Positions 28,685 to 64,000 of a DNA stretch of 64,000 nt are shown piece by piece. This DNA is from Holothuria scabra (lineage: Eukaryota > Echinodermata > Holothuroidea > Aspidochirotida > Holothuriidae), in assembly GCA_037179385.1 (NCBI GenBank), contig CM074179.1, forward strand, positions 37,809,224 through 37,873,223. Direction: 5' to 3'. The notes under the pieces were generated by a model. The model was not told the DNA's origin, did not search any database, and saw only the letters and a program-made list of their open reading frames with translations. A program made the translations under genes and the position numbers. Positions within the stretch are counted from its first letter, which is position 1; every line of letters begins with the position of its first letter.

Positions 28685-28797
28685 CTAAGTTACATCTCTT
28701 CTGATCTGGAAGCATATGCTTTGTTCGTGATCATGCGATGCATTCACATGTGATCCGGTTGAACTGCCTGAACCGTGAGCACTGCCATCGAACAATA
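28685..28797 (-). CDS. Receptor terminal exon candidate, Gly/Ser/His-rich tail
   Basis: A GTGTTCTCAG acceptor in phase 1 leads to [20 protein letters not shown], then [16 protein letters not shown] and a TAG stop at 28687-28685. It joins the exon ending at 32321 in phase with a valine codon. The tail is low complexity and no domain is recognised. Confidence 0.45.

Positions 28798-64000: not shown

Follow-up and report, generated by a model that had tools for sequence, protein, structure and literature searches.

A sea cucumber locus for an AjNLRC4-type membrane Ig-NACHT receptor with a second, altered NACHT domain

Animal NLRs are usually regarded as cytosolic sensors. In the sea cucumber Apostichopus japonicus, the accessible part of a 2021 report describes AjNLRC4 as a membrane receptor for Vibrio with immunoglobulin (Ig) domains outside and a NACHT domain inside the cell, which binds microbes, dimerises, is internalised and acts in actin-dependent phagocytosis (PMC8699970). 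Its binding to actin is reported in print, and the available text of a 2025 study links it to caspase-1 activation and MLKL cleavage (PMC11932488). V-set NLRs of the sea cucumber Chiridota heheva were, according to the accessible text, not identified in sea urchin (PMC8913654). Here we analyse a 64,000-nt stretch of the Holothuria scabra genome (GCA_037179385.1, CM074179.1:37,809,224-37,873,223, forward strand; hereafter the window), whose minus strand carries a gene that gene structure and family membership identify as an AjNLRC4-type membrane Ig-NACHT receptor, and which continues into a second NACHT exon with an altered ATP site. A preliminary description of the locus had doubted that an architecture of Ig domains, transmembrane helix (TM) and NACHT was undescribed, rightly so, because AjNLRC4-type proteins of the same design were already in print (PMC8699970).

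Relatives were collected by protein search, and labels such as P0001 and P0121 denote members of the retrieved protein set. The 120 best of the 381 proteins returned by the first search were used (47 from Holothuria leucospilota, 50 from A. japonicus and 23 from the source 'lgn'); the best matches of this search together with those of a later one gave a set of 128. A helix was called where a hydrophobic stretch with a mean hydropathy of ≥1.9, a threshold of our own choosing, lay 70-200 residues before the P-loop. By this definition 83/128 proteins carry a helix before NACHT; the other 45/128 have none by that threshold, and some of these appear truncated. In the relatives the helix lies near residue 475 and the P-loop near 600-620. 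Lysine and arginine are more numerous after than before the helix in 81/83 members, equal in one and fewer in one. The earlier interpretation as a surface sensor with an intracellular NTPase is partly supported, the cytosolic side being assigned to NACHT solely by this basic-side rule. Across 56 aligned full-length members, the Ig part has nine invariant cysteines, and K605, D680, D683, E684, R714 and H909 (P0022 numbering) are present in 56/56. Some 'lgn' proteins, such as P0065 (1208 aa in a 3698-nt contig) and P0044 (1199 aa in a 3724-nt contig), occupy their whole contigs and are taken as spliced transcripts because the matching window exons span 26 kb.

The closest guide to the window gene is the full-length protein P0121 from H. 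leucospilota (1646 aa), in which a hydrophobic, signal-like stretch at residues 4-22 is followed by the Ig part, the helix, NACHT1, a tail and NACHT2; Pfam recognises two NACHT stretches, V-set and C2-set_2. The full-length relative has four Ig domains, arranged as two V-C2 pairs. Ten minus-strand exons, E1-E10 (64000-32321), have GT-AG borders and join in phase, and E1-E9 align along P0121, bearing out the order of Ig, Ig, one helix, basic juxtamembrane stretch, linker, NACHT and tail that had been proposed from the window alone. The features are as follows, with residues aligned to P0121 and percentage identity in brackets.

E1, 63851..64000, minus strand: 3' end of an Ig domain, the 5' part lying outside the window (49/49, 55%).
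E2, 62913..63248, minus strand: membrane-proximal Ig domain, phase 1-1 (108/111, 58%).
E3, 54235..54354, minus strand: single membrane helix, phase 1-1 (39/39, 41%).
E4, 54012..54058, minus strand: basic juxtamembrane stretch, assigned by phase, position and P0121 alignment (14/15, 29%).
E5, 48197..48233, minus strand: linker opening with E-E-L-P-L-M-L, which resembles the E-x-x-P-M motif of the relatives (12/12, 17%).
E6, 41156..42654, minus strand: NACHT1, in which the P-loop (GDPGYGKS) and Walker B (LDGYDE) are intact (499/499, 81%).
E7, 40397..40605, minus strand: tail, corresponding in the P0022 model to the start of the NLRC4 leucine-rich repeats (LRR) (69/69, 75%).
E8, 38544..38617, minus strand: tail (24/24, 71%).
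E9, 37609..37667, minus strand: tail (19/19, 53%).
E10, 32321..32369, minus strand: linker to NACHT2, phase 0-1, its border moved from 32333.
NACHT2 exon, 25616..27056, minus strand: P-loop GKASCGKS and Walker B IDDVDF, the frame being interrupted within a T-run near 26290.
E11, 28685..28806, minus strand: stop exon of the preliminary description, without support in the main transcript.

By comparison with P0121, the Ig domain of E1 is the third of four. E1 was matched by 106/166 relatives in tblastn and E3 by only 2/166; E4 and E5 gave no match at E up to 10, and E9 and E10 reached only E 0.19 and 0.46 (166 retrieved proteins), so that E4, E5, E9 and E10 are assigned by phase, position and P0121 alignment. 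Of 16 phase 0-to-1 mini-exon candidates scanned in the gap between E4 and E6, E5 alone carries P-[LM]-hydrophobic close to its start, compared with 0/17 on the opposite strand; a stricter splice filter drops E5 itself. The Ig domains score weakly in Pfam in the window (E 0.0037 for C2-set_2 in the E2 frame alone, E 0.027 for V-set in the whole 895-aa model, in which the window edge cuts the first Ig) and above the cut-off in P0121. E6 matches NACHT at E 2.8e-15 and in a PDB sequence search is nearest to NLRC4. No CARD, PYD or death-fold match precedes NACHT in the 895-aa model in Pfam at E up to 1. The model has no LRR match in Pfam, yet the tail of the P0022 model extends into the NLRC4 LRR start.

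The 3' end of the gene differs from the one first proposed. The 11 exons of the preliminary description (2690 nt) do form an open frame, which encodes 895 aa plus stop, the earlier count of 897 including a partial first codon. With its border at 32333, E10 is 33% identical to P0121; ended at 32321, as the mini-exon scan indicated, it fits better and gives a gapless match across the join to KIQDGNIQ|AKKNLLISLTR of P0121. E10 is then followed, at a phase 1 join, by a second NACHT exon at 27056-25616, which had been missed. Neither P0121 nor P0001 has an equivalent of E11, whose best tblastn value is E 5.3 vs 7.8e-144 for the NACHT2 exon (166 proteins); an alternative transcript may terminate at E11. 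A duplicated linker-NACHT block was also considered, on the strength of an E10 of 37 nt like E5, and was rejected when the longer E10 ended the equality of length.

The second NACHT exon was first seen near 27063-25610 when relatives were searched onto the window by tblastn. It matches Pfam NACHT at E 1.3e-12, and two pieces of it are 58% and 44% identical to P0121. A search with P0121 as query returned 104 proteins, and the NACHT2 frame is intact in P0121, P0001, P0130 and P0129. P0130, probably a transcript of a full-length Ig-TM-NACHT-NACHT protein, measures 1803 aa on a contig of 10,221 nt and covers 99% of the query stretch; its Ig domains, helix (469-493) and two NACHTs are followed by a second tail. 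P0129 (2581 aa) has one helix and four NACHTs alternating between DGFDE and DGL(E/D)F Walker B motifs, and may be either a real four-NACHT receptor or two neighbouring genes fused by annotation. P0004, on a 6.9-kb contig, has Ig, helix and NACHT, followed by the first part of another NACHT.

In a midpoint-rooted tree of 34 hand-chosen NACHT sequences, the six NACHT2 copies (window, P0121, P0001, P0130, P0129 N2 and P0129 N4) form one clade with support of 100, and the NACHT1 copies of the same proteins together with P0004 form another with support of 94. The window stands beside P0121 and P0001 in both clades, and the two histories agree only partly, because P0130 is placed differently in each. 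This pattern fits a single origin of the tandem NACHT. The residue changes in NACHT2 are read directly from the alignment: all six copies retain K605, S606 and D680, and position E684 holds F or L in 6/6, compared with glutamate in 28/28 other NACHTs. In the window, NACHT1 keeps this glutamate (LDGYDE) whereas NACHT2 has lost it (IDDVDF). Position R714 is a gap in 6/6, although the missing sensor 1 arginine counts for less than the missing E684, because P0155 and P0157 lack this arginine as well. The histidine of the winged-helix domain is lost from NACHT2 in the window, P0121 and P0001 and kept in P0130 and P0129. This branch is not alone in carrying a tandem NACHT, since A. japonicus P0002 and P0132 also have two NACHTs, with E684 in both, and fall outside the NACHT2 clade. 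The tandem subclass with an altered NACHT2 seems to be new: a literature search with thin coverage of subscription journals found no description of two-NACHT or tandem-NACHT proteins, and papers using 'NACHT-NACHT' apparently concern contacts between NACHTs.

Searching positions 1-25620 of the window with 67 tail pieces yielded no accepted tail exon after NACHT2; a candidate near 17529-17761 (best E 0.010, matched by two pieces of a single protein, 19 and 28 residues long) was rejected. A structure model of P0001 had a predicted local distance difference test score (pLDDT) of <50 over most of 637-861, and its NACHT2 was too poor for use. The 3' end of the NACHT2 exon is partly repeated at 22785-23053 on the minus strand (269 bp, 87% DNA identity), 2.8 kb downstream of NACHT2 and with an extra 58-bp match nearby; this copy is open for ~75 codons and then reaches a donor-like GT.

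Between helix and NACHT, where mean identity is 22%, the 56 aligned members share E at -4 (48/56), P (40/56), M (45/56) and a hydrophobic next residue (50/56). Within 45 residues after the helix, E-x-x-P-M-hydrophobic occurs in 41/83 membrane members, compared with a mean of 0.2 and a maximum of 2 in 500 shuffles, counts that are not independent events because the proteins are related. The motif lies 12-52 residues after the helix (median 20). A general form, [DE]xxx[LM]-hydrophobic, is found in 62/83 members vs a shuffle mean of 10.9, and the window stretch E-E-L-P-L-M-L fits it as EELPLM and ELPLML. A slightly looser motif occurs in 4/45 helix-less proteins (P0053, P0066, P0094 and P0117), whose flanks lead us to take them for membrane-type proteins with models that are truncated or skip the helix. 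The motif resembles the EQLPML sorting signal of the invariant chain, which suggests a putative sorting role; in the accessible text of the respective papers, changing the proline of EQLPML lowered endocytosis (PMC2882754) and EQLPML is listed as an AP-1 and AP-2 binder (PMC8620429).

We favour, with a probability of about 0.6, a holothurian single-pass receptor of AjNLRC4 type in which NACHT2, bearing a P-loop and lacking the Walker B glutamate, acts as a partner or brake. On this reading, the Ig domains would bind microbial surfaces outside the cell and the receptors would cluster; a single helix would span the membrane; and the acidic P-M juxtamembrane motif may direct the receptor towards endosomes or phagolysosomes, the motif and actin contacts together drawing in receptor and cargo. 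The NLRC4-like NACHT1, with its intact ATP site, would be a cytosolic switch triggered by crowding, and NACHT2, presumably still in use in the window gene, could bind nucleotide without hydrolysis and serve NACHT1 as a built-in partner or brake. More tentatively, and on balance somewhat less probable than not, a working NACHT and a pseudo-NACHT may have been co-inherited in one lineage since a single duplication, the pseudo-NACHT, as a built-in partner, setting the threshold for NACHT1 assembly under the membrane and an invariant-chain-like P-M motif delivering the ligand-bound receptor to the phagolysosome.

Several observations weigh against this reading. The frame of the window NACHT2 shifts in the T-run near 26290, so that it is not open, which may reflect either decay or a sequence error. 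The loss of ATP hydrolysis in NACHT2 is a proposal drawn from its residues. P0121, P0001 and P0129 are genome annotations and not cDNA, and the annotation of P0001, whose NACHT1 comes next to that of P0121 in similarity, includes neither Ig nor helix. As to sorting, the exact motif is missing from the window and from 42/83 members, and the canonical [DE]xxxL[LI] is not enriched (3/83 vs a shuffle mean of 3.6). According to the accessible text, cytochalasin D stopped AjNLRC4 uptake whereas other endocytosis inhibitors did not (PMC8699970), so an adaptor route for bacteria is not favoured. Finally, a reverse topology is reported for AjNLR-new in the available part of its description (PMC13133943).

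The strongest competitor, which we consider less likely, keeps the receptor as described and regards NACHT2 as a dying leftover: the transcript, like that of most relatives, would stop after the tail of NACHT1, with exon 27056-25616 skipped or bringing an early stop in this species. The frame break, the partial copy downstream, the lack of an accepted later tail exon and the lower identity to P0121 (58 and 44%, against 81% for NACHT1) all speak for it. However, NACHT2 is open in P0121, P0001 and P0130 and twice in P0129, and its copies form a single clade, from which we conclude that it persisted through several lineages; in the probable transcript P0130, it is moreover followed by a second tail.

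Much less probable is a division of the locus in two: one gene would encode an Ig-TM receptor and end upstream of 48233, the other a cytosolic tandem-NACHT protein with its start at the NACHT1 exon. The annotation of P0001 and P0002 with two NACHTs and no helix, the 5.8- and 5.5-kb introns and weak linker exons between the parts, and a Met at the second codon of E6 are compatible with such a division, but in P0121 all the parts form a single protein whose junctions match, P0130 and P0004 join them on 10.2- and 6.9-kb contigs, and E5 bears a variant of the relatives' juxtamembrane motif. The idea that the Ig part lies inside and NACHT outside, as the accessible text reports for AjNLR-new (PMC13133943), appears hardly credible for this family given the basic residues after the helix in 81/83 relatives, the N-terminal signal-like stretch of P0121 and the ATP-site residues kept in 56/56 NACHTs, which would presumably be of little use extracellularly.

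Among the relatives, P0147 and P0157 combine V-set, a helix near 575-595, NACHT and a C-terminal Death domain, and P0155 has helix, NACHT and Death with no Ig match at E 0.001; P0157 has two Death stretches, and two of the three come from contigs of ~5 kb. A C-terminal Death domain on membrane NACHT proteins would offer a direct route to death signalling. The pair P0019/P0042 is 0.94 identical in NACHT vs 0.47-0.60 in Ig, which may reflect either rapid Ig change or gene conversion affecting the NACHT exon; Ig changes faster than NACHT in some Holothuria pairs but not in the A. japonicus cluster, and we therefore claim no general diversifying selection. Elsewhere in the window, a degenerate element of the long interspersed nuclear element (LINE) type lies between E5 and E6 (47095-47457, minus strand, within ~45900-48060; reverse transcriptase E 1.7e-7). 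An open frame at 39111-39752 (plus strand) has a weak GIY-YIG match below the cut-off (E 0.0011) and may derive from a Penelope-like element. Between E2 and E3, a 170-codon open frame (57884-58393, minus strand) falls just below the cut-off for a guanylin precursor (24.0 vs 25 bits). tRNA and Rfam scans of the window gave no matches.

If the more tentative reading is true, one chain would join surface sensing, uptake and STAND switching. Sea cucumbers have a large set of NLRs with a surface Ig ectodomain, one branch of which carries a normal and a degenerate NACHT per chain, a natural system for asking how a catalytically altered STAND domain affects a normal one. The conserved juxtamembrane motif makes receptor uptake directly testable.

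Human NLRC4, NOD2 and NLRP3 are cytosolic, with CARD or PYD before NACHT and long LRRs. They (PDB 4kxf, 5irm and 7vtp) share the fold of the cytosolic part, NLRC4 having the nearest NACHT by sequence, and are without Ig or helix. The EQLPML signal of the MHC II invariant chain shares E at -4, P at -1, M plus a hydrophobic residue and a place in a cytosolic tail, according to the accessible texts (PMC2882754, PMC8620429), whereas the sea cucumber motif lies 12-52 residues after the helix and its sorting role is putative. Among echinoderm proteins, as far as the accessible parts of the papers describe them, C. heheva likewise has NLRs with an Ig V-set (PMC8913654), and AjNLR-new (1197 aa, 2026) unites Ig, TM and NACHT in one A. 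japonicus protein, but with one NACHT that is reported to lie outside (PMC13133943). AjNLRC4, like the window protein, has Ig-like and Ig domains outside, a helix (483-503), NACHT (600-757) and no CARD; it differs in having one NACHT and in the two membrane helices counted in its description. We think, judging by position alone, that the second of these (776-795) is not a membrane helix, because it would fall on a helix aligning to soluble NLRC4 LMKTPLFVVITCAIQ.
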